A stretch of 47,836 nucleotides of DNA from Sulfurimonas sp. (GCA_024513425.1 JANEIH010000003.1:1-47836), one strand, 5' to 3'; positions 3,348 to 41,216 are shown, counted from the stretch's first letter. Notes: generated by a model from the sequence alone, not told the origin. A program made the numbers and translations.

Positions 3348-3857
3348 ATGTTCGGAAGAAGTACACAGTTAAAAGAGTACAATGTAAGCGAAGATGAGTT
3401 GGCAAAACTCCAATATGCAAAGATCGTAACAAACAAGGATGATATCTGGATTAAGCTCTATCCGCAAGAGACACCAAATACGGTAGCAAACTTTGCTCAT
3501 CTAGCACAAAGCGGTTTTTATGACAATCTAAATTTTCACCGTGTAATCCCTGGATTTATGGCTCAAGGTGGTTGTCCACATGGAACTGGTACCGGTGGTC
3601 CGGATTGGGCGATTGCATGTGAGACAGATAAAAACAGACACAAACATGTAAAAGGTACACTTTCAATGGCTCACGCAGGTCCCAATACCGGTGGAAGCCA
3701 GTTCTTTATCTGTTTTGTTCCATGCCCTCACCTTGACGGTGTTCACACTGTTTTTGGCGGAATCGAAGAAGATGATGCAGAGAGTTTTGCCGTACTTGAT
3801 TCAATTGAGAGTCAAGATGAGATCAAAACTATTGAGATTCACGCAGCAAAAGTGTAG
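3348..3857 (+). CDS. cyclophilin-type peptidyl-prolyl isomerase
   Basis: A 169-aa protein catalysing cis-trans isomerisation of Xaa-Pro bonds. The cyclophilin core is plain: FHRVIPGFMAQGG with the catalytic Arg/Phe region, GTGTGGPDW, the segment NTGGSQFFICF, and HLDGVHTVFGGI. About 25 N-terminal residues precede the core, and there is no signal peptide, so a cytoplasmic location is expected. SD AAAAGG lies just upstream of the ATG. The TAG stop (3855-3857) is directly followed, in the same frame, by the queH reading frame, so the two genes are probably co-transcribed. Confidence 0.93.
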   Translation: MFGRSTQLKEYNVSEDELAKLQYAKIVTNKDDIWIKLYPQETPNTVANFAHLAQSGFYDNLNFHRVIPGFMAQGGCPHGTGTGGPDWAIACETDKNRHKHVKGTLSMAHAGPNTGGSQFFICFVPCPHLDGVHTVFGGIEEDDAESFAVLDSIESQDEIKTIEIHAAKV

Positions 3858-3866
3858 GGATATTTT

Positions 3867-4946
3867 ATCTTAGTCCATATCTGTTGCAGTGTTGATTCAC
3901 ATTTTTTTCTAGAGAAGCTCAAAGAGGATTTTCCTGATGAAAAGCTCACGGGCTTTTTTTATGACCCCAATATCCATCCCTATTTTGAGTATAAACTCCG
4001 ATTTTTGGATGTTGAGAGAAGTTGTAAAAAACTTGGTATTGAACTGATTGAAGGCGAATATGATTACGAATCATGGCTCAATACCGTACGCGGTCTTGAA
4101 CAAGAGCCTGAAAAAGGTGCGCGTTGCGAAGTCTGTTTTCACAAGCGTTTTTTAACAAGTGCACAAAAAGCCCTGCAGCTTGGCGAAGATAAAATTACTA
4201 CGACACTTTTGGTTTCTCCTTTAAAGTCCCAAGAACAACTCAAGCGTCTCGGCGATGATTTTTATGCAAAATATGGTGTTGCATTTATTGCTGTGGATTA
4301 TCGAAGTGGTGGCGGTACGCAAGACCAAAGCAGGGTGGCAAAAGAAGAACAACTTTATCGCCAAGATTATTGCGGTTGTATCTATGGGCTTACTATGCAG
4401 CGTGAACAACAGAATAAACTGATGGATGAGATGTTTTCACCAATTTCAGGACAAATTATGCCCGCTTCCATTGAAGAGAGACTCGCACTTTACAGCTCAC
4501 GCAACAAACTTGAAGATGAGAAAAAAGAGTATAAAATCATCAAACAGAAGTTCTTAAACTACCGACAGTTTTTTTGTAAGCTGGTTTCTGAAAAAAAACC
4601 CATTGATGCTTATGCTCTCTCCTATTCGTCACTACCAAGGAGACGCACGCAAGGGCGTATAGAATTTGTTGTAGATCATGTGCATTATATGAACCGTGAA
4701 GAGGTAAAATTTATCACACTTGCATTTTTTAACGACTTCTTTTCAACCTCTTACAAAGATATAAAAGAGCTTATCTATAATCCTCCAACTATAGATAAAG
4801 AGTTAGATTTAAGAGAGAAAATTTCCGGGTTTTCTTATGATTTAAGTCCAATTGTCGTTGTTTCAAAAATTTCCGATACCAAGCTCACACTTACACTCGA
4901 TACAAAAATCTATGAAGATACTAGAGAAAAGCTAATCGTTTTATAA
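3867..4946 (+). CDS. queH: epoxyqueuosine reductase QueH, non-AUG start
   Basis: QueH (former DUF208) reduces epoxyqueuosine to queuosine in tRNA and binds an iron-sulfur cluster through conserved cysteines. The conserved N-terminus [13 protein letters not shown], the motif GARCEVCF and YCGCIYG are all visible. The ORF track starts at TTG 4005, which would cut off the CC motif. The frame is open back to the stop of the upstream gene (3855), and the codon in the place of the expected initiator Met is ATC (3867), with AGGGA (3856-3860) 6 nt upstream. No ATG, GTG or TTG precedes the CC motif. The product would be about 359 aa, with a C-terminal extension of unknown role beyond the QueH core. A sequencing error (ATG read as ATC) is the simple alternative. 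Confidence 0.82.
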
Positions 4947-4995
4947 TAAAAGTTTTGCTAAAATATTCAAAATTATTATTATAAGGTTTTTCAAT

Positions 4996-5445
4996 ATGCT
5001 TATGGATGTTATGGATATACAAAAAATTCTTCCACACCGTTACCCTTTTTTACTAGTAGATCGCATTACGGAACTCAATCCAAAAGAGTCTATTATCGCT
5101 TATAAAAATGTCTCAATCTCTGAGCCTGTTTTTGAAGGACACTTTCCGGGTCATCCAATCTACCCGGGTGTTATGATACTTGAAGGTATGGCGCAAGCTG
5201 GCGGCGTTTTAGCTTTTAAAAGTATGGATAATGTTATAGAAGAGGAGATTCAAAATAAAGTTGTTTATTTTATGAGCATTGACAAGGCTAAGTTTCGCTC
5301 TCCTGTAAAGCCAGGTGACAAGTTAGAGTATAAAATCTCAGTTATTAAGAACAAAGGTGCTATCTGGCTCTTCAAAGGGGAGGCTTATGTTGATGGAAAA
5401 TTAACAAGTGAAGCTGAACTTAAAGCTATGATAGTGGACAAATAG
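4996..5445 (+). CDS. fabZ: 3-hydroxyacyl-ACP dehydratase FabZ
   Basis: This 149-aa protein dehydrates 3-hydroxyacyl-ACP in type II fatty acid synthesis. It shows the hotdog-fold signature [12 protein letters not shown], then [22 protein letters not shown] with the active-site His in GHFPGHP and the acidic residue in [11 protein letters not shown] (4983-4986) stands 9 nt before the chosen ATG; the ATG at 5005 would be farther away. It is followed by lpxA, the common fabZ-lpxA pairing linking fatty acid and lipid A synthesis, since both draw on hydroxyacyl-ACP. Confidence 0.95.
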
Positions 5446-5492
5446 GCAAAATTTGAGTACCAAAACTAAAACGCAACAGAAGGAAGCAGTAA

Positions 5493-6290
5493 ATGTCTAG
5501 TTGTAAGATATCTGAATTAGCTATTATTGAAGATGGTGCAGTCATTGGAGAAAATGTTACAATAGCTCCGTTTTGTTTTATCTCTAAGGATACGACGATT
5601 GGTGACAACACAACAATTGCACAAAACACATGTATCTACGGAAAGACAACGATCGGAAAAAATAACCGTATCTTCTCTCACGCAGTCCTTGGTTCCATTC
5701 CACAAGATTTGAAATATAACGGTGAAGATGTAGAGCTTATTATCGGTGATGATAATACTATTCGAGAGTTTACACTCTTTAACCCGGGAACAAAAGGCGG
5801 TGGTGGAAAAACCATCATCGGAAACCATAATCTTTTTATGGGTTATGTACACTTGGGGCATGATGTTATTATTGGTAATCACTGTATTTTGGCAAATGCA
5901 GTAACCTTAGCCGGTCATGTAGAACTTGGTGATTATGTTGTCATCGGCGGAATGACACCGATACATCAGTTTGTACACATTGGAGATTATGCGATGGTTG
6001 GCGGTGCGTCGGCACTTACACAAGATATTCCCCCATTTTGTATGGCCGAAGGTAACCGTGCAACGCTTCGTGGATTGAATCTCACAGGACTTCGCCGTAA
6101 TATTCAAAGAGAAGAGATTAACACACTTAAATCTGCTTACCGTGAGCTTTTTGAGTCTGGAAAGCCACTCAAAGATAGAGCAAGCAAACTACTAGAAAAT
6201 ACGAAAAATCATTATATAATTGATTTGTGTAATTTTGTTATTAAAACAAAACGCGGAATTCCATTTGAAAGAAAAGGATTAGAAAAATGA
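5493..6290 (+). CDS. lpxA: UDP-GlcNAc acyltransferase LpxA
   Basis: First step of lipid A synthesis: it transfers a 3-hydroxyacyl chain from ACP to UDP-GlcNAc. The 265-aa length is normal. The N-terminal two thirds are hexapeptide repeats forming a left-handed beta helix (such as IGENVTI, IGDNTTI, IGKNNRI), and [11 protein letters not shown] contains the catalytic His. The segment [10 protein letters not shown] and a helical C-terminal domain follow. SD AAGGA lies 8 nt before ATG. The stop overlaps the clpX start (ATGA), so translation is probably coupled. Confidence 0.96.
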
Positions 6291-7531
6291 TACACAGACA
6301 TTGTAACTTTTGTGATACAGGTGAGAGCGAAGAGAATCCGCTTATCGCTGGAAATGGTGTTTATATCTGTAAAAATTGTGTCTTCTCAGCTTATAAAATT
6401 ATGTTTGGTGATGAGAAAGAGTTAGTAGATCAAGATAGTGCTAAGCTCACAGAACATGTAGAAAAGCTGATGACACCTAAGGAGCTTGACAAATTTTTAG
6501 GAGATTATGTCATTGGTCAAGAGAGAGCTAGAAAGCTTATTAGTGTAGCTGTTTATAACCATTATAAAAGAATCTTTAAAATACACAATGCAGTTGATGA
6601 TGAGACAGAGATTGCAAAATCAAATGTTCTCCTCATTGGTCCGACAGGATCTGGTAAAACATTGATGGCGCAAACGATTGCACGAGTACTCAATGTTCCT
6701 ATTGCCATTGCTGATGCAACAAGTTTAACAGAAGCCGGATATGTCGGTGAAGATGTTGAAAATATCTTGACAAAGCTCATCCATGCAGCAGACGGTGATG
6801 TAGAGCGTGCACAAAAAGGTATCATTTTTCTTGATGAGACAGACAAGGTCTCACGCATGAGCGAAAACCGTTCTATTACTCGTGATGTAAGCGGTGAAGG
6901 TGTACAGCAGGCACTGCTTAAAATCATTGAAGGCTCATCTGTAAATATTTCACCAAAAGGTGGAAGAAAACATCCAAATCAGGAATTTACTACAATTGAC
7001 ACAACAAACATCCTCTTTATTTGTGGTGGAGCATTTGATGGTTTAGAAGAGATCCTCAAGCGTAAGCAGGGTGAAAATATTCTTGGTTTTGGACATGAGA
7101 AGAAGACAAAAGATGAAGCAAAACCTACTTTTGATATGGTAGAGCCTGATGATCTAGTGCGTTATGGACTTATTCCTGAGCTTGTCGGTCGTCTGCCAAT
7201 CATCGCATCTCTTGATGAAATCACAGAAGATGATATGGTATCTATTCTCACAGAGCCTAAAAACTCTCTTGTAAAACAGTATAAAAAACTTTTTGCGATT
7301 GATGATGTAGAGCTTAACTTTGAAGAAGATGCGCTTCGTGCTATTGCACAAAAAGCAATCAAGCGTAAAACTGGAGCACGCGGTCTTCGTGCAATTATGG
7401 AAGAGGGTATGATAGAGATTATGTATGAACTTCCAGAGTATGTAGGATATGAACTTCTTATTACGAAAGAGGTTATTGAAGATGGCGAAAAGCCGGTATA
7501 TATTAAAAAATCAATACAAAAAACAGCATAA
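6287..7531 (+). CDS. clpX: ClpX, ATPase subunit of ClpXP
   Basis: AAA+ unfoldase that feeds substrates to ClpP. The N-terminal zinc-binding domain has CNFC and CKNC (residues about 6-32). The AAA+ core has Walker A GPTGSGKT, the pore loop GYVGED, Walker [11 protein letters not shown], the RKH loop within GGRKHPNQ, and LGFG at the place of the ClpP-docking IGF loop. [11 protein letters not shown] contains the sensor-2 Arg. At 414 aa it is normal length. It begins inside the last codons of lpxA and is followed 10 nt later by mreB, so proteolysis, envelope and shape genes share a transcript. Confidence 0.96.
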
Positions 7532-7541
7532 GGCGGGATAG

Positions 7542-8579
7542 ATGATATTTAACAAAATAATAGGACTTTTTTCAAATGACTTATCAATTGACCTTGGTAC
7601 CGCAAATACGATTGTAATTGCCAAAGGCCGTGGTATTATAATCAATGAACCATCTGTAGTTGCAGTAAAAACAGAAAAGTATGGACAGACAAGAGTTTTG
7701 GCCGTCGGACATGAAGCAAAAGAGATGGTGGGTAAAACCCCGGGGAATATTAAAGCTATTCGCCCTATGCGTGATGGCGTCATTGCTGACTTTGATATGA
7801 CAGAGAAGATGATTCGAAAGTTTGTAGAAAAAGCACATGGAAGAAGCTCTTTAATCTCTCCTCGTATCATTATCTGTGTTCCTTACGGTCTTACGCAGGT
7901 TGAGCGTAAAGCTGTTCGAGAGTCGGCTCTTAGCGCTGGCGCACGCGAAGTATTTCTTATAGAAGAGCCGATGGCAGCAGCAATCGGTGCTGGTATAAAC
8001 ATTCGCGAACCGCAGGGAAATCTTGTTGTTGATATCGGTGGTGGTACAACAGAAATCGGTGTCGTTTCTCTTGGCGGACTTGTGGTTTCAAAGTCAATCC
8101 GTACCGCAGGTGACAAAATCGATCATGGGATTATAAATTATGTAAGAAAAAAATATAATATTCTTATAGGTGAGCGTGTTGCAGAGGAGATCAAAATCAA
8201 TATCGGCACGGCCGTAAGTCTTGATCAGAAACTCTCTATGGTTGTCAATGGACGCGATCAGGTTGAAGGACTTTTAAGCTCAATAGAACTAACTTCAGAT
8301 GATACCAAAGATGCTATGCGTGAGCCTCTTAAGGAGATCGCAGAGGCACTTTGCGATGTATTGGAGCAGATACCGCCAGATTTGGCAGGAGATATTATCA
8401 ATCACGGTATTATTTTAACAGGCGGCGGTGCACTTATTCGCCAACTTGACAAATTTTTCTCAGACATTGTAAAAGTTCCTGTTTTTGTACCTGATGAGCC
8501 ACTGCTCGCTGTTGCGCGCGGAACCGGTCGTGCGCTTGAAGAGATAGATCTCTTACAAGAACTTTTTGAGAATGAATAA
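7542..8579 (+). CDS. mreB: rod shape-determining protein MreB
   Basis: Bacterial actin homologue that organises side-wall peptidoglycan synthesis under the inner membrane. The 345-aa sequence has phosphate-1 motif DLGTANT near residue 20, phosphate-2 DIGGGTTEIGV near 165, the segment EEPMAAAIGAG, and the adenosine motif LTGGGALIRQL near 290. The SD is in AAGGCGGGATAG before ATG. The stop codon overlaps the mreC start (ATGAATAA), the usual mreBC coupling. Confidence 0.97.
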   Translation: MIFNKIIGLFSNDLSIDLGTANTIVIAKGRGIIINEPSVVAVKTEKYGQTRVLAVGHEAKEMVGKTPGNIKAIRPMRDGVIADFDMTEKMIRKFVEKAHGRSSLISPRIIICVPYGLTQVERKAVRESALSAGAREVFLIEEPMAAAIGAGINIREPQGNLVVDIGGGTTEIGVVSLGGLVVSKSIRTAGDKIDHGIINYVRKKYNILIGERVAEEIKINIGTAVSLDQKLSMVVNGRDQVEGLLSSIELTSDDTKDAMREPLKEIAEALCDVLEQIPPDLAGDIINHGIILTGGGALIRQLDKFFSDIVKVPVFVPDEPLLAVARGTGRALEEIDLLQELFENE

Positions 8580-9333: not shown

Positions 9334-9394
9334 AATTTTCTCTGATTTATACATTTTAGTACCTATCCTCATTAAATATTAAGTGCTTCTTAGC

Positions 9395-9400
9395 TACAAT
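9395..9400 (+). promoter_or_regulatory. -10 box of carB
   Basis: TACAAT in an AT-rich 103-nt spacer between mreC and carB, about 37 nt before the carB ATG. A small palindrome TCTCTA-N7-TAGAGA lies directly downstream in the likely 5' leader. No -35 is apparent. Confidence 0.35.
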
Positions 9401-9436
9401 CTCTAAATTTTATAGAGACTATTTAAGAGGTAATAA

Positions 9437-12400
9437 ATGCCAAAACGTACCGACATTAAAACTATTTTACTTGTAGGTTCCGGTCCGATTGTAATCGGTC
9501 AGGCATGTGAATTTGACTACTCGGGAACACAAGCAGTAAAGACGCTAAAGGAGCTTGGATACCGTGTTGTTCTTATCAACTCAAATCCTGCTACAATTAT
9601 GACAGATCCTGAATTTGCAGACAGAACCTACATTGAACCAATCAAAGAAGATATTATTGAAAAAATTATCAAAGATGAAAATGTAGATGCTATTTTACCT
9701 ACAATGGGTGGGCAAACTGCACTTAATGTTGCCATGAGTATGTATGAAAAAGGAATGCTTGAGGGTGTAGAATTTCTAGGTGCAGATCCACAGGCTATTA
9801 AAAAAGGGGAAGATAGGCACCTTTTTAATGAATCGATGATTAAAATCGGTATGGATCTGCCAAAAAGTAAAAATGCATATAGCGTTGAAGAGGCTATAGA
9901 GGTAGCAAAAGAGATTGGTTTTCCGGTAATTTCTCGTGCTTCTTTTACGCTTGCCGGTGGCGGTAGTGGAGTAGCTTATAATATGGAGGAGTTTGAAAAA
10001 CTCGCCGCAGAAGGCATCAGTGCATCTCCTATTAATGAGATAGAGATAATGGAGTCTATGCTTGGTTGGAAAGAGTATGAGATGGAGGTTATCCGTGATA
10101 AAGCAGACAACTGTATCATCATATGCTCAATTGAAAACTTCGATCCTATGGGCGTTCATACAGGTGATAGTATCACCGTAGCACCTGCACTTACTTTAAC
10201 AGACAAAGAGTACCAAAGAATGCGTGATGCATCTTTTGCAATCCTGCGTGAGATTGGTGTTGATACCGGTGGCTCTAATGTTCAGTTCTCAATAGATCCA
10301 AAAACCGGTCGTATGATTGTTATTGAGATGAATCCTCGTGTATCTCGTTCATCTGCATTAGCATCCAAAGCAACCGGATACCCTATTGCAAAAGTAGCAA
10401 CTCTTCTAGCAGTTGGATTTACACTTGATGAGATAACAAATGATATTACAGGTACTCCTGCAGCATTTGAACCTGTTATTGACTATATTGTAACAAAAGT
10501 ACCGCGTTTTACATTTGAAAAATTTCCCGAAGCAGTAAGCACACTCTCTACTTCTATGAAGTCAGTCGGTGAAGTTATGGCGATCGGTCGTACTTTTAAG
10601 GAGTCCATTCAAAAAGCACTCTGTTCTTTAGAGACCGGATTGTGTGGATTTGATGAGATCGATGCGAATGATGAGTTTGTCCTTCATGAAATCCGTCGCC
10701 CTAATGCGGACAGAATTTTATATGTTGCAGAAGGTTTTAGGCGTGGTATGAGTATTGAGGAGATGTTTAATATATGCCAGATTGATCCATGGTTCTTGTA
10801 TCAGATCCAAGAATTAACAGAGAGAGAAAAAACAGTAACAGATAAAATTCTCTTTGATGCCGGTTTGATGAGAGAAGTAAAAGTTGACGGCTTCTCTGAT
10901 AAACGCATAGCGCAACTTATTAGGAAAAATTCCAGAGAGAGTGTCAGTGAAGAGCTTGTCTATGAAGCGCGTAAAAAACTAGGTGTTACTCTAGAGTACA
11001 ATGAAGTAGATACCTGTGCAGCAGAGTTTGAAGCACTCACGCCATACCTCTATTCTACTACAAATATTACAAAATTACCGATGGTTGAATCCCCACGCCA
11101 AAGTGACAAGAGAGCATACCCCTCAGGTAAAAAAGTACTTATTCTTGGTGGCGGACCAAATAGAATAGGTCAGGGAATTGAGTTTGATTACTGTTGTGTT
11201 CATGCTGCATTTGCACTTAAAGAGATGGGTATAGAGACTATTATGTATAACTGTAATCCCGAAACTGTCTCAACTGATTATGATACTTCTGATGTACTCT
11301 ATTTTGAGCCGATTGATTTTGAGCATGTGCGTGAGGTTATTGAAGCGGAAAATCCAGATGGTGTTATCGTTCATTTTGGTGGACAAACACCACTCAAACT
11401 TGCAGACGGTTTGACAAGAATCGGCGCAAAGATATCCGGAACGCCTTCAGCGGTCATTGATCTTGCAGAAGATAGAGAACAGTTTTCTGACTTTGTAAAT
11501 CGTCATAGACTCAAACAGCCCGAAAATGGTCTAGCTCGCACAAAAGAGGAGTCTTATGTAATCGCTCAAAAGCTCGGATACCCTGTACTTGTTCGTCCTT
11601 CATTTGTTCTTGGAGGGCGTGGAATGCGTATTGTTTACTCAGAAGCAGAGCTTAGAGAGTATATGGATCTTGCGATCTCTGTAAGCAATGAAGCGCCTGT
11701 GTTAATTGATAAATTCTTAGACCAGGCAATTGAGCTTGATGTGGATTGTATCTCTGATGGAGAGGATATCTACATCGGAAGTGTTATGCAACATATAGAA
11801 GAGGCTGGAATTCACTCGGGTGACTCTGCGTGTTCACTGCCTCCGGTAAATCTAAGCCAAGAGATGATAGAAAAAGTAGAACTCCAAACTAAAACGATTG
11901 CACTTGGTCTGGGCGTGCGAGGACTTATGAATGTTCAGTATGCTATCTATGAGGGTGAAATTTATCTTATAGAAGTAAATCCTCGTGCAAGCCGTACTGT
12001 ACCGTTTGTATCTAAAGCAACAGGTATGCCTTTGGCAAAAGTAGCAACACGCGTTATGATGGGAGAGAATCTTCGTGATTCTCTTGCATACTATGATAAG
12101 TATGATATTATTGAAGAGATAAACGGTCTGCTTCGTCCTCGTCTTAAAGGGCATGTTTCAGTAAAAGAGGCAGTATTTCCTTTTCATAAACTTTATGGTG
12201 CAGATTTGGTTCTTAGTCCTGAGATGAAATCAACCGGTGAAGTTATGGGAATCAGTAAAAATTTCGGTGTATCTTTTGCAAAATCACAACTGAGTGCCGG
12301 CAATAAGATCCCAACAGGTGGTACATGTTTTCTCTCTTTTGTAGATTCTGATAAACAGTACGCTGCTGAGATTGCAGCAGGAGTTGTTAAACATGGTTTT

Positions 12401-12715
12401 AAACTTGTTGCAACAAAAGGAACACAAGAGGCAATTATAGCTACGGGCATAGAGTGCCAAAGAGTACTTAAAATTTCTGAGGGTCGTCCAAATATTGAAG
12501 ATAGTATGAAAAATGATGAGATTGCAATGGCGATCAATACTTCAGATAACAACACAAGCAAAAAAGATGCTGTTGTCATTCGTCAAGAGGTGCTTAAGCG
12601 TAACATCCCATATTTTACTACACTTAGTGCTGCTCGTGCACTCATCTTGGCACTTGATGAGATGAAAGATGATAAATGGTCCAAAGCAACGGCACTTCAA
12701 GATTTTCTTGTATAA
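9437..12715 (+). CDS. carB: carbamoyl-phosphate synthase large subunit
   Basis: It makes carbamoyl phosphate from bicarbonate, ATP and glutamine-derived ammonia for arginine and pyrimidines. At 1092 aa it is full length, with two homologous ATP-grasp halves: [17 protein letters not shown] opens the first and [16 protein letters not shown] the second. Metal-binding segments [17 protein letters not shown] and [17 protein letters not shown] occur in each half. A C-terminal MGS-like allosteric domain begins near residue 950 ([13 protein letters not shown]). AAGAGG is the SD. carA is not adjacent. A hairpin terminator stands 24 nt after the stop. Confidence 0.98.
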
Positions 12716-13149
12716 AAAAGAGTATCATTCTCACGCAGACCGACACAACTGTCGGTTTTTTATCTCAAGATGCCTCTAAGTTGCGTGAAATAAAATCACG
12801 CCAATCAAATAAACCCTTTATTCAAGTATTTCAAAATTTTAAAACATTAAAAAAAGCAAATATCCGCATACCAAAAAGCAGAAAAAAGATGCTCAGACGA
12901 ACAAAAAAAACCACCTTTATAGTAAAAAACAAAGCCTTTCGGATTGCAAAATACTCTTTAGACTCTGAAGTGTTAAGAAAACTAGAGTGGAGCTATTCAA
13001 CATCGGCAAATGAGAGCGATAGAGGCTATGAGAGAAGTTTTTGTGAGCAAAAAGCTGATATAATAGTAGAAGATAAGCGGGGACTCTTTGAAGAGAGAGC
13101 CTCAAGACTTTATAAAATAAACAATACAAAAATAAAGAGGTTGCGATGA
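12676..13149 (+). CDS. small YrdC/Sua5-like protein
   Basis: The family motif TQTDTTVGF near the start, the KPFIQVF segment and the later YSTSANESD match the YrdC-domain pattern (TDTxxG ... STSAN) of threonylcarbamoyl-AMP synthases, which start the t6A modification of tRNA. At 157 aa it is shorter than TsaC, so it may be a divergent paralogue. The only standard start is ATG 12676, 40 nt inside carB; the conserved region begins about 16 codons later, at codons such as ATC/ATT. The carB terminator hairpin lies on codons of the TDTTVG motif. The stop overlaps the next gene (ATGA). Confidence 0.6.
12739..12761 (+). terminator. intrinsic terminator after carB
   Basis: A perfect 7-bp stem ACCGACA / TGTCGGT with loop CAAC, followed by six T. 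It lies 24 nt past the carB stop and inside the YrdC-like reading frame, so it would reduce transcription of the downstream genes unless read through or covered by ribosomes. Confidence 0.75.
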
Positions 13150-18521: not shown

Positions 18522-19646
18522 TTGTCTAACTTGACACTTATTTTACTTGCATCTGGAGCTTCTAGGCGCTTTGCCCAAGATGTAAAAAAACAGTGGCTTC
18601 GCATTGAACATAAGCCTTTGTGGCAATTTGTAGCAGATAATTTGAAAAAAAGTGGCTTTTTCTCTCAAATTATTATCGTAGGTTCTGCCGATGAAATAGA
18701 GTTTATGAAACTATACTCCTCATATCAGTTTGTAGCAGGTGGAGTGACAAGACAGGAGTCTCTTAAAAATTCACTCGAAATTGTTGCAAATGAATATCTC
18801 CTTGTGAGTGATATAGCACGCGCCTGCATCTCGACCAATTTATTAGAACGCATTATCTCACGCAAGGGTTTGTCTGATGTTATCGTTCCCTTTTTAAATG
18901 TAACCGATACTATTGTGTATGAGAATGAAACTATTGATAGAGACAAGGTAAAAAGAATTCAAACCCCACAACTCTCCACAACAAAAGCACTTAAAGCTGC
19001 ACTTGATACTAATGAGATATTTACAGATGAGAGTAGTGCTATAGTTGCAAACGGTGGCTCACGCGAGTTTGTTGTAGGTGAAGATGATGCCCATAAGATT
19101 ACATACCCGCAAGATTTAAAAAAAGTTTCATGTTTGAGTGCACCAAGCAGTGACATACTTAACGGAAGCGGTTTTGATGTCCATGCCTTTGATGATAAAG
19201 GTACAATGTGGCTAGGTGGTGTAAAAATAGAATCCGACTTTGGATTTAAAGCACACAGCGATGGTGATGTAGCTATTCATGCACTCATAGATGCTCTCTT
19301 AGGGGCCGCAGGAATGGGTGATATAGGAATGCTTTTTCCTGACAATGATGATGCATATAAAGGGATCGATTCAAAAGAGTTGCTCAAGAATGTTGTAGCA
19401 AAAATTTATAGTTTTGGTTTTGTTATTATCAATGCAGATATAACCATAGCAGCACAAACACCTCGTATAGGAAAGTATAAACCGCAAATGCGTAGAGTTT
19501 TAGCTGAGATCTTGGGCATCGATACATCGCGTATGAATATCAAAGCAACGACAACAGAAAAATTAGGCTTCATCGGAAGAAGCGAAGGTGTTGGTGTTAT
19601 TGCCAATGCAAATTTAAAATATTTAGATTGGAAAATGATAGGATAG
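18522..19646 (+). CDS. ispDF: bifunctional IspDF (MEP pathway)
   Basis: A fusion of 2-C-methyl-D-erythritol 4-phosphate cytidylyltransferase (IspD, residues about 1-205) and MECDP synthase (IspF, about 215-374), steps three and five of the non-mevalonate isoprenoid pathway. The IspD part has LLASGASRRF and VKRIQTPQ. The IspF part has GSGFDVHAFD, AHSDGDVAIHALIDALLGA and GDIGMLFPDND with the metal-binding residues. The start is TTG: GAGGAG (18510-18516 region) stands about 6 nt before it, and no ATG fits. IspDF fusions are usual in Campylobacterota. It heads the conserved ispDF-RR-sat-pgpA block. Confidence 0.93.
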   Translation: MSNLTLILLASGASRRFAQDVKKQWLRIEHKPLWQFVADNLKKSGFFSQIIIVGSADEIEFMKLYSSYQFVAGGVTRQESLKNSLEIVANEYLLVSDIARACISTNLLERIISRKGLSDVIVPFLNVTDTIVYENETIDRDKVKRIQTPQLSTTKALKAALDTNEIFTDESSAIVANGGSREFVVGEDDAHKITYPQDLKKVSCLSAPSSDILNGSGFDVHAFDDKGTMWLGGVKIESDFGFKAHSDGDVAIHALIDALLGAAGMGDIGMLFPDNDDAYKGIDSKELLKNVVAKIYSFGFVIINADITIAAQTPRIGKYKPQMRRVLAEILGIDTSRMNIKATTTEKLGFIGRSEGVGVIANANLKYLDWKMIG

Positions 19647-22218: not shown

Positions 22219-22531
22219 AACACTCTATCTCTTCGTAAGCTTTCTGCGTGAGTTTATCTAACATATCGTCATATGAGGTGTAAATAGACCCTAGTTCACT
22301 TGATCGCTGTCTGAGCTAAAGACCACACTACACTCATTACGGCGTTTTACACTAAAAGCTACTAGATTTACCACTTCTAGTTCAAAAAACTCTTTGATAT
22401 GGATCAAAATCGATCTTTGAGTTTTTCAAGTCACTTTTATAAATTGATAGCATTTGTCGGGCAGATCACTTCACATCTATTGCATTGACTCTCAACGCTT
22501 AGTGATCAAACACACAGCCCCGTATTAAGTT
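22219..22531 (-). pseudogene. decayed 4Fe-4S ferredoxin-type gene
   Basis: The 316-nt gap between pgpA and the MscS gene is not empty. Read on the minus strand it gives, in order but in shifting frames, RGCVFDH, then LSVESQCNRCEVICPTNAI (a CxxCxxxCP cluster-binding motif at about 22484-22458), then KSDLKNSKIDFDPYQRVF, then FELEVVNLVAFSVKRRNECSVVFSS, then SIYTSYDDMLDKLTQKAYEEIE. At least three frameshifts and the loss of the 5' part make it non-functional. The 9-mer CTCACGCAG occurs in it (22252-22244). The original function is unknown. Confidence 0.65.
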
Positions 22532-24559: not shown

Positions 24560-25414
24560 ATGGCAAAATCATTATATGAAACATTAGGAGTATCAGAAAA
24601 TACAAGTGAATCTGAGATTAAAAAAGCATATAGAAAATTAGCAAGGAAATATCATCCGGATATCTGTAAAGAAGCAGATTGTGAAGAGAAATTTAAAGAG
24701 ATCAATGCAGCGTATGAGATATTGAGCGACAAAAAGAAAAAAGAGCAGTATGATATGTATGGAGATTCTATGTTTGGAGGGCAGAATTTCCATGACTTCT
24801 CACGCAGTCAGAGCGGTAATGTTGATCTTGATGAGATACTGCGTCAAATGTTCTCTAGTGGTGGAGGCTTTGGCGGTTTTGGTGGAGCTGGAGGTTTTCA
24901 TCAAGAACCAAATCTTGATATCGAATCAAAGGTGACGATTCCATTTAATGTAGCCATTCTTGGTGGAACGCACTCAGTTTCAGTTAATGGTGAGCGTCTT
25001 GATATTAAGATCCCAATAGGTGTTAAAACAGGAGAAAAGCTCCGCGTGAGAGGAAAAGGGCATACGCAAAACGGTCGTTTCGGAGATCTGTTTTTAAAGA
25101 TAACAGTAGCGCCGTCACCAGATTATGAGCGTGAGGGAGATGATCTTGTCAAAACCATAGATATATCGCTCTATGTAGCTTTCTTTGGTGATAAAATTGC
25201 ACTACAAACACTCGACAAAGAGATAAAACTCAAAATCCCACAAAACACAAAAAATGGACAGCGTTTCCGCGTGAAAGAGATGGGTGCTGTAAATAGAAAA
25301 ACAAAACAAAGAGGCGATTTGTACTTAAAAGCAAATATTATCAATCCAAAAGTAGAAGATTTGAGCAATGATTTGGTAGAATTGATGAAAGAAAAATTAC
25401 CAAAGAGAATTTAA
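24560..25414 (+). CDS. cbpA: DnaJ-like co-chaperone CbpA
   Basis: A 284-aa J-domain protein with [29 protein letters not shown] (HPD loop intact), a Gly/Phe linker ([14 protein letters not shown], about 105-125) and two C-terminal substrate-binding domains, without the Cys-rich zinc domain of DnaJ; so CbpA rather than DnaJ. It stimulates DnaK and may bind DNA. SD AAGGA lies before ATG. hspR follows after 11 nt, the cbpA-hspR pairing known from Helicobacter. Confidence 0.93.
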
Positions 25415-27159: not shown

Positions 27160-27591
27160 ATGAGTTCGGCACTTGAGCGGCTAAAAAAAATAACAAATAA
27201 GATATCTTCGTATGAGCTAGCAAGAAAAGAGAATACGGCAGAGCTTAAAGAGCTTTATAGAGAGATAGGTATCGATAAAAAAGTAGAGTATTTTGAAGAG
27301 CTTTTTGAATTTAAAGCTATTAATCTCTCAGGTGTTTCACTTCAAGAAGAGAATTTAGGTGAGATAAAAGAGGGAAAGTATCTACAGATTTTAGCAATAT
27401 CGTACGATAAGGATGCAACCATAAAGAGTAAAAATGTCTCCTTGGCATACTTTGGAAGAGTTGAGAGTGTTGATAGGGTATTAAAAGAGAGGATTGTGGA
27501 GTTTGTAATTAGATACCGTTTTGAGAAGAGTTTTATCAATATGGAGCACTATCACGCTATGTTTAAAAAATTTAAAAACAAAGATGTTTAA
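27160..27591 (+). CDS. hypothetical protein, 143 aa
   Basis: I do not recognise it. It begins with a charged helical part (SALERLKKITNKISSYELARKENTAELKELYREIG), then a mixed alpha/beta part ending with FEKSFINMEHYHAMFKKFK. There is no signal peptide, membrane segment or cysteine. It heads a tight run of five genes: the next gene overlaps its stop by 8 nt. It is likely cytosolic. Confidence 0.65.
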   Translation: MSSALERLKKITNKISSYELARKENTAELKELYREIGIDKKVEYFEELFEFKAINLSGVSLQEENLGEIKEGKYLQILAISYDKDATIKSKNVSLAYFGRVESVDRVLKERIVEFVIRYRFEKSFINMEHYHAMFKKFKNKDV

Positions 27592-28087
27592 GTTTTATTT
27601 TCTATTGTGGGTTTCATGGGTAGTTCAAGTAGTGTTGCGTAGCCTTTTTCTAGCAACATTTTTTGCACTTCTTTTGACACTCTTTATCTATATGAAACAG
27701 GGCTTCCCTTCTATAGATAAAGAGATAACGGATGCACTTTTTGATGTTTGGAAGTTTTGGTTTGCTATTGCTTTAAATGCGGCTGTTTTAATCGCACTTT
27801 TTCAAAGCGTAAAGTATCTTTTTGACCATCCTCACGCAGACTATATGCTAAAACTCAAAAATGGAGATTTGGCTAAAATACGGCGGAAATGGTTTTGGTT
27901 ACTTATTTGGCTTGTCGGGAATTTGATGGTGCTTGCAGCGCTGTTTACACATATCTTTAGCTTTTATGAGAGCCTTTTTGACTGGTTTAATATCTATATT
28001 CTATACGCTTTTATATTATTTGCAGGATATCTCTCTTTTATATTTTTAAGCAGTCGTTGCAAAAGTGTTAGGATTGTGAAGTGCTGA
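27584..28087 (+). CDS. hypothetical inner-membrane protein
   Basis: The ORF track starts 21 codons too early; ATG 27584, overlapping the upstream stop, gives a 167-aa protein. Four hydrophobic segments are visible at about residues 3-36, 58-78, 108-128 and 135-155, rich in Trp and Phe. PHADYMLKLKNGDLAKIRRKW forms a cationic inner loop. No family motif is recognised. The stop overlaps the start of the DnaQ-like gene. Confidence 0.65.
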   Translation: MFKFYFLLWVSWVVQVVLRSLFLATFFALLLTLFIYMKQGFPSIDKEITDALFDVWKFWFAIALNAAVLIALFQSVKYLFDHPHADYMLKLKNGDLAKIRRKWFWLLIWLVGNLMVLAALFTHIFSFYESLFDWFNIYILYAFILFAGYLSFIFLSSRCKSVRIVKC

Positions 28088-28767
28088 TATTTTTAGATAT
28101 TAAAACAACAGGATATGAAAAAGAGGATAAAATCTGCTCTTTAGGAGTGCTCTTCTTTGAAAACAGATCCTGCACAAGCTCTTTGTATGAGCTTATAAAT
28201 GAGGGTAAAAAGATACCCTCAAAGGCTTCGGCTTTGCATAATATCACCAATGAGATGATTCAAGGGAAACCTGCGTTGCGTGAGAGTGAGATTTATAAAT
28301 ATCTCCAGATACACAACAAAGCAGAAAACATACTAATCATGCATAACGCCGATTTTGTTCTTCCTTATCTCAAAGATGTCGGTTTAAAATGGTATGGTAA
28401 AATCATAGATACACAAAAAGTTTTAAAGCATCATATTCCAGAGTGTGAATCTTTTAGTTTGGAATTTATACGCTATGAGTTAAAACTCTACACAAAAGAA
28501 GAGCCACATAAACAATTATGTGGAATTAAAGATGCTTTTGTCGTTAAGTTGCTCTTTGACTATCTCTTAGAAGAGTTAAGTCAAGAGATGATGCAAGAGC
28601 TTAGTTTTAAAAATGTACTGCTTGAGAAGTTTCCCTTTGGAAAGTATGCCGGTAGATATATTGAAGAGATAGCTGAGATTGATAGAAGCTATCTGCTGTG
28701 GATGCTCTCTTTAGAGAGTTTGGATGATGATTTAGCGTACTCTTTGGAGTACTATTTACAAGGATAG
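28081..28767 (+). CDS. DnaQ-like exonuclease-fold protein, probably inactive
   Basis: A 228-aa protein starting at GTG within the upstream gene's last codons. The N-terminal 170 residues follow the DEDDh exonuclease pattern, but motif I reads FLDIKTTG instead of DxETTG, motif II reads HNADFVLPYL where NxxFDL is expected, and motif III reads LCGIKDAF where HRALSDA-like is expected, with His displaced. The C-terminus FGKYAGRYIEEIAEIDRSYLLWML is a DUF3820-like module found behind ExoX-type nucleases. It probably still binds nucleic acid or a partner without cutting. A real nuclease with shifted residues is the alternative. Confidence 0.75.
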   Translation: MLIFLDIKTTGYEKEDKICSLGVLFFENRSCTSSLYELINEGKKIPSKASALHNITNEMIQGKPALRESEIYKYLQIHNKAENILIMHNADFVLPYLKDVGLKWYGKIIDTQKVLKHHIPECESFSLEFIRYELKLYTKEEPHKQLCGIKDAFVVKLLFDYLLEELSQEMMQELSFKNVLLEKFPFGKYAGRYIEEIAEIDRSYLLWMLSLESLDDDLAYSLEYYLQG

Positions 28768-29760: not shown

Positions 29761-29789
29761 ATTTCTTGCATAATACAAGGATTTGTTTA

Positions 29790-30815
29790 ATGAAATATTT
29801 TTTAGGTTTCTTACTGTTTTTTACATCACTTCACGCAGCGAAAATCACAGATATTTCAAACATTGTCGGTGTTCGGGATAATCAGATTATTGGTTACTCT
29901 TTGGTTGTCGGTCTGAAAAAGACAGGAGATGGCACAACCTCAAAATTTACACTCCAATCAATTTCAAATATGTTAAAAGCGATGAATATCGATATGAATC
30001 CTGTAGATATTAAATCGAAAAATGTTGCAGCGGTTGTGGTAACAGCAACGCTTAAATCTTTTGCAAGACAGGGTGATAAATTTGATGTAACGGTATCTTC
30101 CATCGGTGATGCAAAATCTTTAGAGGGTGGAACACTTTTGATGACACCGCTTAAAGGGGTAGATGGAAAGATATATGCGTTGGCACAAGGTTCGCTTAGT
30201 ATTGGCGGACTCAACCAAAGAGGTGTTGGATCGGCGACACATCCAACGACAGGCATAGTCTTTGACGGCGGTTTTGTTGAGCGTGAGATAAACATCGACC
30301 TTTTTCATCAGCAGTATGCAACACTCTCTCTTAAAGAGTCCGGTTTTGAAAATGCAGTAGCTGTGCAAAAGGCGATAAATAGATACTACAATAGAGCAGT
30401 AGCAGTGGCAATGGACTCACGCAGCATCAAGTTAAAATGCCCGAAAAATCGTTCAATGATTGAGTTTTTGGCAGAAGTGCAAAACATCAATATAGATTAT
30501 AAAGTTAAAAATAAAATCATCATCAATGAAAAAACCGGAACTATTGTTGCCGGAGTAGATATACAACTAAAACCAACTATTCTTACGCATGGGGATATCA
30601 CGATTAAGATAGTCGAAAAAGATTCGATAAAGATGGATAAAAATCTTGCAATTGATATGAATGAGAATGAAATTTATACAAAAAAAGGTGCAACTACTGT
30701 TGCCAACCTTGTGCGTTCACTTCAAAAACTAGGGGCAACACCAAAAGATATCATCTCTATTTTAGAGGCGATGAAGAGTGCAGGGAGCATCTCTGCCGAG
30801 TTGGAGGTAATATAA
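29790..30815 (+). CDS. flgI: flagellar P-ring protein FlgI
   Basis: A periplasmic ring around the flagellar rod in the peptidoglycan layer. The ORF track starts at TTG 29766; the ATG at 29790, after CAAGG, gives a clean signal peptide MKYFLGFLLFFTSLHA. The mature protein has ITDISNIVGVRDNQIIGYSLVVGLKKTGDG, LTATLKSF-like strands, and ALAQGSLSIGG. About 341 aa, normal. The stop overlaps the flgJ start. It heads flgI-flgJ-flgM-flgN-like-flgK. Confidence 0.95.
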   Translation: MKYFLGFLLFFTSLHAAKITDISNIVGVRDNQIIGYSLVVGLKKTGDGTTSKFTLQSISNMLKAMNIDMNPVDIKSKNVAAVVVTATLKSFARQGDKFDVTVSSIGDAKSLEGGTLLMTPLKGVDGKIYALAQGSLSIGGLNQRGVGSATHPTTGIVFDGGFVEREINIDLFHQQYATLSLKESGFENAVAVQKAINRYYNRAVAVAMDSRSIKLKCPKNRSMIEFLAEVQNINIDYKVKNKIIINEKTGTIVAGVDIQLKPTILTHGDITIKIVEKDSIKMDKNLAIDMNENEIYTKKGATTVANLVRSLQKLGATPKDIISILEAMKSAGSISAELEVI

Positions 30816-35598: not shown

Positions 35599-35614
35599 CA
35601 TATCTATTTTTTTT
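35592..35614. terminator. bidirectional terminator
   Basis: A 7-bp AAAATAG / CTATTTT stem with loop CATAT, then four more T on the plus strand. It covers the stop codons of the convergent AI-2E and radical SAM genes, which are only 5 nt apart. Confidence 0.6.
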
Positions 35615-36581
35615 GTTTTCTCATACTGTTCGCAGCAGGTATTAAAAACTCCAAAGCACCTAACTTTTTGACGACAATCTCTCCCTTATTTAAGAGTCTC
35701 TCTACTCTTTGCTTGCTTGCATCATCAAAGAGCAGTACAATATCCTCTTGCGTGAGAGGACGCTTATCTAGAGTGTTGAGTATCTCCTCTTCATTGTAGC
35801 TAGCGTGATTTTCTTCTGTGTGGTGGCGTGAGGCTATGTGGATAGGTAAGGAGGTTGCAAACATATGAGAGAGGGTGTGAAGCTCTTTGTAGCTGATTCC
35901 CATTACAGGATAAGCCGGCGGTCTGTCTATTGTTCCAAGGTCTATTCTTGAGGCATTTATAGATAGGAGAATATTGTTGAGTTTTTCTACCTCTTCTCTT
36001 GTATCATTAAGCCCATGAACAAAGAGTATCTCTACAAAGAGTTTACCTCTGTACTCTTTTGAAAAAGCTTCTACTCTTTTTACAATATCTTCTATCTCAA
36101 TATCTCTATGTGGTCTATCTATCTTTTTAAAGATTTCAGGCGTTACGGCATCTAAAGAGAGCTTGACCTGATTGAGTTTTAGAAGTGATTTGTAAACTTT
36201 TTCATCGATGAGTGTTGCAGAGTTTGTCAATATAAGTGTTTGAACATCACCTTTTATTGCATCTATTGCATTGATAAGTTCATCAAGACAGGGGTAGAGT
36301 GTTGGTTCTCCATTGGCAGTGAGCGTTATAACATCTATCTTTTCATCAAGATGTTTTTGAAGTTCGTTGATAATTTCAGGGACACCTACTGTCTCTTTTT
36401 GGCTTGCAACTGTTGCAGAGGGTGCAAGCTCACAGTAGAGACAGTCAAAATTACACTGTTTGCGTGAGGGAGAGAGGTCAACTCCAAGACTCATTCCAAA
36501 ACGGCGTGAGTTTACAGGACCAAAGATTGTCTTATTTTTTTCCACTGACTCTGTGGCACTCGTTAATGAAATGTTTTGCAT
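35604..36581 (-). CDS. radical SAM protein (COG0731-like)
   Basis: A protein of up to 325 aa. [20 protein letters not shown] and the cluster motif CNFDCLYCE (CxxxCxxC) lie near the N-terminus, followed by [18 protein letters not shown] and [20 protein letters not shown], the usual pattern of this family. The C-terminal 70 residues look like a winged helix ([33 protein letters not shown]), probably for nucleic acid or a partner. The substrate is unknown. The start is uncertain: ATG 36581 is 50 nt inside hemE, whereas GTG 36545 would give a 313-aa protein starting nearer the conserved region. Confidence 0.85.
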
Positions 36582-37572: not shown

Positions 37573-37621
37573 TTAGTACCTCTTTGTATCGAATTTTAAT
37601 TCCTATTTCCATTATTTCCCT

Positions 37622-38140
37622 TTAATGTTTATGTCCAACTTTACTTAAAAAGTATAAACCGACAGCAACAGCTGTAATTGAAAGTGCTAAATAGAGTAAC
37701 TCAAGCGGAGTATTGTAGCTAGTAAGTCCGACTTTTTTAAAAAAACCAACAATTAAAACCATTACGATTACTTTGGATATTTTGTCTTTGAGTTGATCTA
37801 ATGAATGAATAGAGAGGATTTTATTTTCTCGATCCTTATCATTGCGTGCAGTATCAATATCTGAAATAAAAAGCTCATAAAGACCAAATGAAAACAGCAA
37901 CATTACAACACCGATAAGATAGAGATCTACAGCCCCAATGATACCACCAATTACAAGCTCATGAAAATGTTCAAGATGATGATGGTTTAGATAGGCATTG
38001 AAAACAAGTTTAAGTGTTTCATAGATATCAAATGATGCTACGACGAAAAGTATTATAGCGCCAATAAGACCAAAAATAACAGCCATAAGAACTATAAAGC
38101 GTGAGCCCCAAAGTCCTTCTTCAAAGATTTTTTCTAGCAT
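37622..38140 (-). CDS. UPF0114 (YqhA) family membrane protein
   Basis: A 172-aa protein with about four membrane helices: RFIVLMAVIFGLIGAIILFVVASFDI, VIGGIIGAVDLYLIGVVMLLFSFGLYELFIS, VIVMVLIVGFFKK and LLYLALSITAVAVGLYFL. The signature VDLYLIGVVLLIFSFGLYELFIS matches YqhA. The function is unknown. A His-rich turn (NHHHLEHFHE) sits in the first loop and KVGHKH ends the chain. The gene lies 2 nt after asd. Confidence 0.88.
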   Translation of the reverse strand: MLEKIFEEGLWGSRFIVLMAVIFGLIGAIILFVVASFDIYETLKLVFNAYLNHHHLEHFHELVIGGIIGAVDLYLIGVVMLLFSFGLYELFISDIDTARNDKDRENKILSIHSLDQLKDKISKVIVMVLIVGFFKKVGLTSYNTPLELLYLALSITAVAVGLYFLSKVGHKH

Positions 38141-38141
38141 T

Positions 38142-39167
38142 TTAATTTTCCATTTCTACCCATTTCTGGGCAATTCTTACTGCATTTGTTGCAGCACCGA
38201 CTCTTAGATTGTCCGCAACGACAAACATATGGAGTATATTGTTTGCATATACATCTTCACGGATGCGTCCAACATAAGTCTCATTCTTATCGACACAATC
38301 TTTTGGCATAGGGTAGAGTGCTTGTGAGGGATTATCAACGACAATAATATTTGGTGCTTGAGATAAAATCTCACGAGCCTCATCTGCACTTACTGCAGAG
38401 TCAAAAGTCAGTGTTAGTGCCTCAGAGTGTCCTCGAAGAACCGGTACACGCACACAAGTTGCACTTAGAGCTATCTCTTTATGCATAATTTTTGTTGTCT
38501 CATTGACCATCTTCATCTCCTCTTTTGTGAAACCATTTTCTAGAAACATATCGATTTGAGGAATGACATTGAGGGCGATCTGTTGGTTAAATGCTTTAAC
38601 TTCTGCTTCATCAAGTTTAAATGCAAAGAATGCCTGCATTTGATTTACAAGCTCTTCCATAGCAGATTTTCCGGCACCGCTTGTTGCTTGATATGTTGCA
38701 ACATCAACACGCACTAGGTCATACGCATCATCAAGAGGCTTGAGTGCTTGAATCATCTGAATGGTTGAGCAGTTTGGGTTTGCAATGATTCCACTCTCAC
38801 GCCATTTAGCTATATCTTCAGGATTGACTTCCGGCACAACCAAAGGCACATCTTCTTGCATTCTAAAGTGAGAAGTGTTGTCAATAACAACTGCTCCGGC
38901 TTTTACGGCAGCGGGTGCAAATTCTGCACTGACACTTCCGCCGGCAGAGAAAATTGCAATCTCTATACCTTCTTGCTCAAAGATATCATTTGTAAGTTCA
39001 AGTATTGTTAGCTCTTTGGCGTTAAAGTCTATCTTTTTTCCAGAACTGCGTGAAGATGCCAACGGAACCAATTTGTTCAAAGGGAAATCTATCTCTTCTA
39101 AAATTCTAAGAACCTCTTCTCCGACCGCTCCATTTGCACCGACAACTGCTACATTATAGTTTTTCAA
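38142..39167 (-). CDS. asd: aspartate-semialdehyde dehydrogenase
   Basis: It reduces aspartyl phosphate to aspartate semialdehyde for lysine/DAP, threonine and methionine. The 341-aa sequence has NVAVVGANGAVGEEVLRILEE (NADP-binding), IANPNCSTIQMIQALKPL with the catalytic Cys, TYQATSGAGKSAMEEL, and RVPVLRGHSEALTL with the active-site His. It is transcribed with the UPF0114 gene after flgR with a 15-nt gap. Confidence 0.97.
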   Translation of the reverse strand: MKNYNVAVVGANGAVGEEVLRILEEIDFPLNKLVPLASSRSSGKKIDFNAKELTILELTNDIFEQEGIEIAIFSAGGSVSAEFAPAAVKAGAVVIDNTSHFRMQEDVPLVVPEVNPEDIAKWRESGIIANPNCSTIQMIQALKPLDDAYDLVRVDVATYQATSGAGKSAMEELVNQMQAFFAFKLDEAEVKAFNQQIALNVIPQIDMFLENGFTKEEMKMVNETTKIMHKEIALSATCVRVPVLRGHSEALTLTFDSAVSADEAREILSQAPNIIVVDNPSQALYPMPKDCVDKNETYVGRIREDVYANNILHMFVVADNLRVGAATNAVRIAQKWVEMEN

Positions 39168-39182
39168 TTTTCTCTCCTATAC

Positions 39183-40325
39183 TTATTTTCTGATATCTAA
39201 ATAGAGTTCATCTTTTTGAATCTCTTGATTTTCGCTTAGTATTACAGCTCGTTCAACTACAGAGATAAGCTCTCGTATATTCCCCGGCCAGTTGTAATCG
39301 AGTAGTTTGCTTTGTGCCTCTTTTGAAAAGCTTTTTTCTTTAAAGCCATATTTTTTACAATTCTCTTTGCATACAGCCTCTGCAATCTGCAATATCTCAT
39401 CGCGTCTCTCACGCAAAGGCGGAATTAAAAGCGGAATAGTATTGAGCCGATAGTACAAATCTTCTCGAAACTCACCATTTTTTATCTTCTCATGAAGATT
39501 TGCATTTGTTGCTGAGATAATACGAACATCTATCTTGATTGTTTTGGATGAGCCAAGACGCCGTATCTCTTTTTCTTGTAGTGCTCGCAGCAGTTTTGCC
39601 TGAACACCATAAGGCATCTCACCTATCTCATCTAAAAAGAGTGTCCCCCCGTGAGCTTGCTCAAATTGCCCAGCTTTAGCTTTTGCTGCATCGGTAAAGG
39701 CACCTTTTTCAAAGCCAAAAAGCTCACTCTCTATAAGATTTTCAGGTAGTGCTGCCATATTGATAGCGACAAAAGGCTTCTTTGTGCAGGATGAATTTTT
39801 ATGGATATATGAGGCAAACACCTCTTTTCCTACGCCACTCTCTCCAAGAAGCAGTATGCTTGCATCTGTCTTGCTTGCTTTTTGAGCAATAGTGAGAACC
39901 TGTTGTAGTGCTTTTGATGAACCAAGAAACTCATTTGTACTTTTATCGCTTTGCTTTTTTACACTCTTTTTTATTTTTTGGACTTTTCTCTCCCTTTGAA
40001 TTGCTGCAATAAGCGCATCAATATCAAAGGGTTTGAGCAAAAAATCTTTCACACCAAGCTGAATAGATTCTATGGCTCGCGTAAGTGTTGCATTGCCGGT
40101 CATAATAATGACTTCAAAACGCCCGTTTAGCTCTTTTACAAACTCAATACCATCCATCTTTGGCATATTGATATCTGCAATGACCAAATCAAAACTCTCA
40201 TCAAGCTTTTTGAGGGCATCTACGGCATTTTTAAATGTCACAACCTCAAACTCTTTATAATCATCCATAGCGATCTCAAGAGATTTTCTCATATTAATAT
40301 CATCTTCGACTATGGCAATTTTCAC
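39183..40325 (-). CDS. flgR: flagellar sigma-54 activator FlgR
   Basis: A 380-aa NtrC-like activator with a receiver (IADINMPKMDG with phospho-Asp near residue 52, LKPFDIDAL), then an AAA+ domain: Walker A GESGVGKE, ELFGFEKGAFTDA at the sigma-54 contact loop, Walker B GGTLFLDEIGEMP and the arginine fingers region REDLYYRLN. It ends at DELYLDIRK without a helix-turn-helix domain, the feature of H. pylori FlgR, which activates RpoN without binding upstream DNA. The loop motif is GAFTDA, not the canonical GAFTGA. It likely drives the flgI promoter here. Confidence 0.9.
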   Translation of the reverse strand: MKIAIVEDDINMRKSLEIAMDDYKEFEVVTFKNAVDALKKLDESFDLVIADINMPKMDGIEFVKELNGRFEVIIMTGNATLTRAIESIQLGVKDFLLKPFDIDALIAAIQRERKVQKIKKSVKKQSDKSTNEFLGSSKALQQVLTIAQKASKTDASILLLGESGVGKEVFASYIHKNSSCTKKPFVAINMAALPENLIESELFGFEKGAFTDAAKAKAGQFEQAHGGTLFLDEIGEMPYGVQAKLLRALQEKEIRRLGSSKTIKIDVRIISATNANLHEKIKNGEFREDLYYRLNTIPLLIPPLRERRDEILQIAEAVCKENCKKYGFKEKSFSKEAQSKLLDYNWPGNIRELISVVERAVILSENQEIQKDELYLDIRK

Positions 40326-40344
40326 AAAAAGTCCTACTACTTAG

Positions 40345-40761
40345 CTATTTTAAAGGAGCAATTCTAACAAAACTATCATTAAAATCGACTTTGAAACATT
40401 TTGAGGGTAGTGTGAGTATCGTAGATGAGTCATTTTTACCATTGAGCGTCTCTTCATAATACCTGACGCTTAGACCTATTTTATAAAGAAACTCTATAAA
40501 TTTATCTTGATTGGCAAGTAGGATTTCTTTTAAAATTTCTGATTTTTGAGACTCTAAAAGTAGAGTGTCATAGGGTCTGCCCATACACTTTTTCATCGCT
40601 TTTGAAACATAAAGTGTCTCACTGTAAAGAGTTGCATTTTTAACGGAGTATCTATAGGAGATAATGTATTCATCTGCAAAAATTACAGATGAACAGAGTA
40701 GTAGAGAGATTATTGAGGAAATTGATTGCGTGAAAGAGTAATCTCCATCTCTACTTCGCAT
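40345..40761 (-). CDS. small exported hypothetical protein
   Basis: A 138-aa protein with a signal-peptide-like stretch SSIISLLLCSSVIFA-DEY after about 14 residues, then a mature part with FIEFLYKIGLSVRYYEE and SKCFKVDFNDSFVRI. The only standard start (ATG 40761) lies 52 nt inside the LPP20-family gene and leaves an unusual charged N-terminus; a start nearer the signal peptide would need ATT or ATA. It lies between flgR and the LPP20-family gene on the same strand. No family recognised. Confidence 0.6.
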   Translation of the reverse strand: MRSRDGDYSFTQSISSIISLLLCSSVIFADEYIISYRYSVKNATLYSETLYVSKAMKKCMGRPYDTLLLESQKSEILKEILLANQDKFIEFLYKIGLSVRYYEETLNGKNDSSTILTLPSKCFKVDFNDSFVRIAPLK

Positions 40762-41216
40762 AATCCCTCTTTAAAAGTCGTTTCAATGATATTTGCATTT
40801 CTCACCATTGCTTGAACAGATGTTCTGATAGTTGAGCGTTTTACCATCATATTTTTAATGAGATCTTGACCATCTATACGAACACCTTTTACTTTTTCAG
40901 CAATAAGTCTGTAAGCATCGGCAACAGCTGCACGCTTAGCAAGTGCATAAGCTTGTGCAGGTGAAGAGGTATTTGCCGGTGCCACACCTTGACCTATAAC
41001 ATTGATAAGGAGGTTATGCCGTGTATCAAGAACATCCTCTTTTTTGGGAGAAAGTTTCTTTTTTACTTTTGATTTTGCAACAGGGTTAGTAATCTCTGTC
41101 TGCTTCACGCAGTTACTTGTTGAGCATACTATAGTTACTTGTGTTGCATCTTCTTTTTTATCGGCTGCAAATGATGTAACACTTAGAAGTGCTATTAATA
41201 CTAAAGAGTATTTCAT
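40710..41216 (-). CDS. LPP20-family exported protein
   Basis: A 168-aa protein with a signal peptide (MKYSLVLIALLSVTSFA-ADK) but no lipobox Cys, so probably soluble periplasmic rather than a lipoprotein. The LPP20 domain is visible: NVIGQGVAPANTSSPAQAYALAKRAAVADAYRLIAEKVKGVRIDGQ. The H. pylori relative Lpp20 is an outer-membrane lipoprotein. Two Cys (VCSTSNC) lie near residue 32 and could form a disulfide. The downstream exported protein and flgR suggest a link with cell envelope or motility, but this is inference. Confidence 0.8.
   Translation of the reverse strand: MKYSLVLIALLSVTSFAADKKEDATQVTIVCSTSNCVKQTEITNPVAKSKVKKKLSPKKEDVLDTRHNLLINVIGQGVAPANTSSPAQAYALAKRAAVADAYRLIAEKVKGVRIDGQDLIKNMMVKRSTIRTSVQAMVRNANIIETTFKEGLCEVEMEITLSRNQFPQ

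Follow-up and report, generated by a model that had tools for sequence, protein, structure and literature searches.

An over-represented octamer in a Sulfurimonas contig

The DNA analyzed here (the window, 47,836 nucleotides at its full length) is contig C55 of G000, a 1.35 Mb Sulfurimonas assembly. Its genes include those for a cyclophilin-type peptidylprolyl isomerase, lpxA, clpX, mreB, carB, ispDF and flgI, and the closest clpX matches outside G000 were from Sulfurimonas MAGs (83-84% identity), which places G000 in this genus of the Campylobacterota. Toward the contig end, a tandem amt-glnK-amt arrangement, with a P-II regulator gene between two ammonium transporter genes, lies at 44502-47527. 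An array at 47741-47836, in which the 9-mer AAAGAAAGT is repeated about 11 times, runs off the contig end, and CTTTCTTTAC words are enriched in the window because of this array.

The octamer CTCACGCA occurs 17 times in the window, on both strands (10 plus, 7 minus). The initial annotation had given this total, together with 8 copies of the 9-mer CTCACGCAG and 30 of TCACGCA, and a recount matched all three numbers exactly. Its list of sites was right in 16 of the 17 coordinates, and the last site starts at 39408 and not at 39418. The sites are as follows, some of them with the following base in parentheses.

3670..3677, plus strand, CTCACGCA(G): in the cyclophilin-type peptidylprolyl isomerase gene (ORF 3348-3857)
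4496..4503, plus strand, CTCACGCA(A): in a QueH-like gene (ORF 4005-4946)
5677..5684, plus strand, CTCACGCA(G): in lpxA (ORF 5493-6290)
6850..6857, plus strand, CTCACGCA: in clpX (ORF 6287-7531)
8317..8324, minus strand, CTCACGCA: antisense in mreB (ORF 7542-8579)
10245..10252, minus strand, CTCACGCA(G): antisense in carB (ORF 9437-12715)
11328..11335, minus strand, CTCACGCA: antisense in carB (ORF 9437-12715)
12730..12737, plus strand, CTCACGCA(G): in a Sua5/YrdC-like gene (ORF 12676-13149)
18857..18864, plus strand, CTCACGCA(A): in ispDF (ORF 18522-19646)
22245..22252, minus strand, CTCACGCA(G): the sole intergenic site of the window
24799..24806, plus strand, CTCACGCA(G): in a DnaJ-family gene (ORF 24560-25414)
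27831..27838, plus strand, CTCACGCA(G): in an ORF that matched no Pfam family (27521-28087)
28277..28284, minus strand, CTCACGCA(A): antisense in an exonuclease-domain gene (ORF 28081-28767)
30416..30423, plus strand, CTCACGCA(G): in flgI (ORF 29766-30815)
35749..35756, minus strand, CTCACGCA(A): in a radical SAM gene (ORF 35604-36581)
36461..36468, minus strand, CTCACGCA(A): in the same radical SAM gene (ORF 35604-36581)
39408..39415, plus strand, CTCACGCA(A): antisense in a sigma-54 response-regulator gene (ORF 39183-40325)

The over-representation relative to base composition, as first claimed, is real: dinucleotide-preserving shuffles of the window gave a mean of 0.76 copies and a maximum of 3, compared with the 17 observed.

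The word is enriched genome-wide and restricted to one clade

The whole-genome count proposed as a check on the window showed 621 copies of CTCACGCA in G000 (312 forward, 309 reverse), while the reversed word, used as a control, had 22 (12 + 10). A window-local artefact was thus ruled out, and an artefact of assembly or binning is unlikely because a closed genome, G071, holds 962 copies. These two genomes mark the range of copies per enriched genome. Based on 276 kb of G000, the full preferred motif is [CGT]CTCACGCA[AG], that is, BCTCACGCAR; de novo motif search retrieved the same motif in four relatives, and so in five genomes in all. One-base neighbours of CTCACGCA exceeded the background, taken from relatives without the word, only for changes at the word ends, and central changes were at background. 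A depletion of near matches seen against a Markov model was gone once these relatives were used for comparison.

Among 135 Sulfurimonas genomes, seven (including G000) had 340-592 copies of CTCACGCA per Mb, with a genus median of 12. The same seven also had the highest GyrA bit scores against G000 (92-96% identity). One further genome, G126, was partly enriched (99 copies, 62 per Mb), and its GyrA falls among those of the seven (94% identity over a partial match). This clade member with few words (comEC locus L201) could represent a loss in progress, an early stage or a variant word. When the survey was widened to the class (397 genomes from about 68 genera), comparable enrichment was detected nowhere else, the highest remaining count being 283 in G310 against 111 for the control.

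The word was also conserved at aligned positions. In pairwise alignments of clade members (77% identity), in which a pair may count in both directions, 62% of the words (64 of 104) faced the same word in the other genome, compared with 10% (26 of 254) for permuted words with identical composition.

Codon use, strand and spacing

The initial annotation held that codon use does not explain the word, and shuffling of synonymous codons within each gene agreed: 126 copies were observed in G000 coding sequence and 10.2 ± 3.1 were expected, and in G071, 164 were observed and 13.4 ± 3.7 expected. A codon, dipeptide or mutational bias that yields the word could draw on Leu-Thr-Gln, which is frequent in sense frame 0. 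Codon use is nevertheless not the cause, because the shuffles give about 10 copies and not 126, and codon or dipeptide bias is refuted on this ground. In addition, several frames are used on both strands, the antisense frames without the word being those that create a stop (TGA) or the rare Cys-Val, and the reversed word is at background. We therefore give this explanation almost no credence. In G000, the density of the word was 0.52 per kb in genes and 0.17 per kb in intergenic regions.

To evaluate strand and ori-ter bias, 19 evenly spaced 20-kb stretches of the closed genome G071 were sampled, in which the GC skew flips sign near 0.9-1.0 Mb. Of 172 sites, 69 (40%) were on the leading strand and 103 on the lagging strand (P = 0.012). 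The bias is mild and opposite to the direction expected for Chi. There was no strong polarity, and a ter-directed polarity of the KOPS type is rejected, as the mixed orientation in the window had suggested. The second replicon of G071 (49.8 kb) is plasmid-like, with DnaB-like and endonuclease I genes, and the 20 kb sampled from it contained no CTCACGCA, with 9 expected. The spacing of the word was close to random, with close pairs near expectation. Inverted pairs were not in excess in the spacing analysis, and a role as terminator was rejected on this basis.

Other words occur in sister branches

Searching stretches from other members of the genus de novo, and then counting over whole genomes, revealed three further words, all of which exceeded synonymous-codon shuffles in coding DNA. 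The word AAACGCAG had 2331 copies in G139, 1822 in G016 and 1698 in G086, and surpassed 60 per Mb in 29 genomes, G071 apart. TGATGCAR reached 2094 copies in G001 and 1930 in G018, with 190-734 elsewhere. The palindrome TACATGTA had up to 848 copies and surpassed 60 per Mb in 25 genomes; its 600-850 copies in G011, G031, G006, G060, G062, G073 and G076 were mostly intragenic. About half of the genus had none of the four words, and no clear fifth dialect was found in ten such genomes (18-42 kb of coding DNA each).

The four words are nearly mutually exclusive. At these thresholds, two word classes occurred together in only one genome (G071), with 8.5 expected if they were independent (P = 0.0001), a value that is only indicative because the genomes are related. 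In G071, AAACGCAG is strand-skewed (111 forward, 30 reverse), unlike in other genomes, perhaps reflecting a repeat array, and no cluster of it was found in the sampled stretches. Another word, ATGACTTCG, was strongly enriched in stretches of G009 (12 copies vs 0.12 expected; L129 on C2, also L128) and not in their coding sequence, and is probably a local repeat.

When aligned at their 3' ends, the words read CTC-ACGCA-R, (N)AA-ACGCA-G, (N)TG-ATGCA-R and TAC-ATGTA-R, and all fit NNN-AYGYA(R), a shared core that is a post hoc pattern. The base following TACATGTA was R in 77% of cases in the genomes with this word. TACATGTA is the least certain member of the set and may be something else, because it is palindromic, its counts are graded, and a ComEC tree places it in two distinct parts of Sulfurimonas. 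This tree (29 genomes) grouped four of the five AAACGCAG genomes, and also the three genomes of one branch in which TACATGTA was strongest. Should TACATGTA prove to be no uptake word, a separate explanation would be required for it.

Competence genes and candidate receptors

Of the likely uptake machinery, ComEC was detected in 78 of 79 good Sulfurimonas genomes and a PilT-family ATPase in all 79. Since both are nearly universal, their presence cannot explain which genomes carry a word, and competence genes were uninformative as a discriminator, occurring with or without an enriched word. Two comEC matches, both in word-rich genomes (G071:C1:254710-255462 and G013:C74:7242-7985), have one in-frame TGA each, from recent decay or sequencing error. 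A ComEA-like gene had been placed near the sites, but a Pfam scan of window ORFs, chiefly those at least 100 aa long, detected none. The ComP_DUS minor pilin (PF16732) was over the cut-off in none of the 135 genus genomes, and a ComP homologue was consequently set aside as the receptor. Likewise, a strict pattern for the pilin signature had no match in the sampled stretches, which covered roughly one-fifth of G000 and G071.

Discussion

Three roles had been suggested for the word: a DNA uptake sequence, a Chi-like site and the binding site of a chromosome-organising protein. Among these, an uptake sequence fits best because the words are clade-restricted and replace one another from branch to branch, and are conserved at aligned positions, independent of frame and without strong polarity; the absence of CTCACGCA from the sampled part of the plasmid-like replicon also belongs to this pattern. 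An organising site is unlikely given 340-590 copies per Mb that are evenly spread without polarity. By analogy with the known systems, BCTCACGCAR is probably a self tag resembling DNA uptake sequences, and would belong to a new dialect family in Campylobacterota with a putative receptor.

The resemblance is closest to the DNA uptake sequences (DUS) of Neisseriaceae, where eight dialects share a common CTG core and track phylogeny (PMC3630211). As in that family (PMC3630211), copies are dispersed and number in the hundreds or thousands, related genomes carry several words with a common short core, the word tracks phylogeny, and some related genomes are without any word. Unlike the DUS, the core here is AYGYAR and not CTG, the phylum is Campylobacterota, and no ComP_DUS receptor was over the cut-off; moreover, the Sulfurimonas word is depleted between genes and shows no excess of inverted pairs. 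The uptake signal sequence (USS) of H. influenzae has about 1300 copies, and USS pairs often form terminators (PMC5217627). The Sulfurimonas word is similar to the USS of Haemophilus and other Pasteurellaceae as a dispersed 9-mer of similar density on both strands with clade variants, and differs in sequence and in that its pairs form no terminators. The lower intergenic density and the lack of an excess of inverted pairs, unlike in Neisseria and Haemophilus, count against an uptake sequence, as do the occurrence of ComEC and PilT with or without an enriched word, the lack of a ComP_DUS match over the cut-off and the share of the genus, about half, with none of the four words. Among the open-access papers searched, none reports an uptake sequence in Sulfurimonas or Campylobacterota; CTCACGCA is also absent from them as a term, which is not proof of novelty.

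The main rival is a Chi-like site, read by an AddAB- or RecBCD-type nuclease that steers recombinational repair and protects the core chromosome, with a word that drifted between lineages. Like Chi, CTCACGCA is an over-represented, short, non-palindromic word (a 7-9-mer) that lies mostly in coding DNA of the core chromosome, and both its retention at aligned positions and its absence from the sampled part of the plasmid-like replicon would suit such a role. Chi, however, acts with polarity and is usually leading-strand biased, whereas the Sulfurimonas word has no leading-strand excess, only 40% of the sites in closed G071 (69/172) being on that strand. In sister clades within the genus the word also gives way to others, one of them a palindrome that could not be polar, and such replacement is not known for Chi. 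These points make a Chi-like site unlikely.

We also find it improbable that the word is HIP1-like or a nucleoid-protein site, recognised by a protein that binds or modifies DNA and under selection for spacing or structure, not for uptake. Cyanobacterial HIP1, a GC-rich palindromic octamer, provides a precedent as a very abundant, dispersed word without a known role, and the Sulfurimonas word is similarly dispersed on both strands with roughly random spacing. The main word is not palindromic, unlike HIP1; known organising sites are far fewer and polar or regional, and such a site offers no cause for the switching of dialects. Restriction-modification, in which the word would be a methylation site enriched through selfish or protective methylation, could account for clade-specific words through the gain and loss of methyltransferases, and yet genomes normally avoid restriction sites, whereas the enrichment here is twenty-fold or higher, so that this reading is very improbable.

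If the words are uptake sequences, a surface DNA receptor on a competence pilus or pseudopilus may bind the word in double-stranded DNA, and the receptor would not be a recognisable minor pilin of the ComP_DUS family. Word-bearing DNA would be preferentially imported, by PilT retraction and through the ComEC channel, and then recombined. With uptake biased in this way, alleles with the word would repeatedly beat those without it, leading to the 340-590 copies per Mb. The specificity of the receptor may have shifted from one lineage to another. Three dialects at a minimum, and probably four, would have arisen in this way, all with AYGYA(R) as their 3' core and each with its own preceding bases (CTC, AA, TG and TAC). 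The wider proposal goes further, and we hold its chances to be about even: that Sulfurimonas harbors at least four radiating uptake dialects, which are recognised by a receptor with no relation to ComP, that self-DNA recognition originated independently in Campylobacterota, and that each dialect bars gene exchange with sister lineages.

How bacteria recognise their own DNA during uptake is known mainly from work on Neisseriaceae and Pasteurellaceae. If true, the Sulfurimonas words would add a further independent case in another phylum, in which the origin, the switching and the barrier effect of dialects would be testable in many genomes of one genus, and a new class of DNA receptor should be traceable through the genes whose distribution follows the dialect. 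The word can also be used as a sequence tag to assign metagenome contigs to a lineage.
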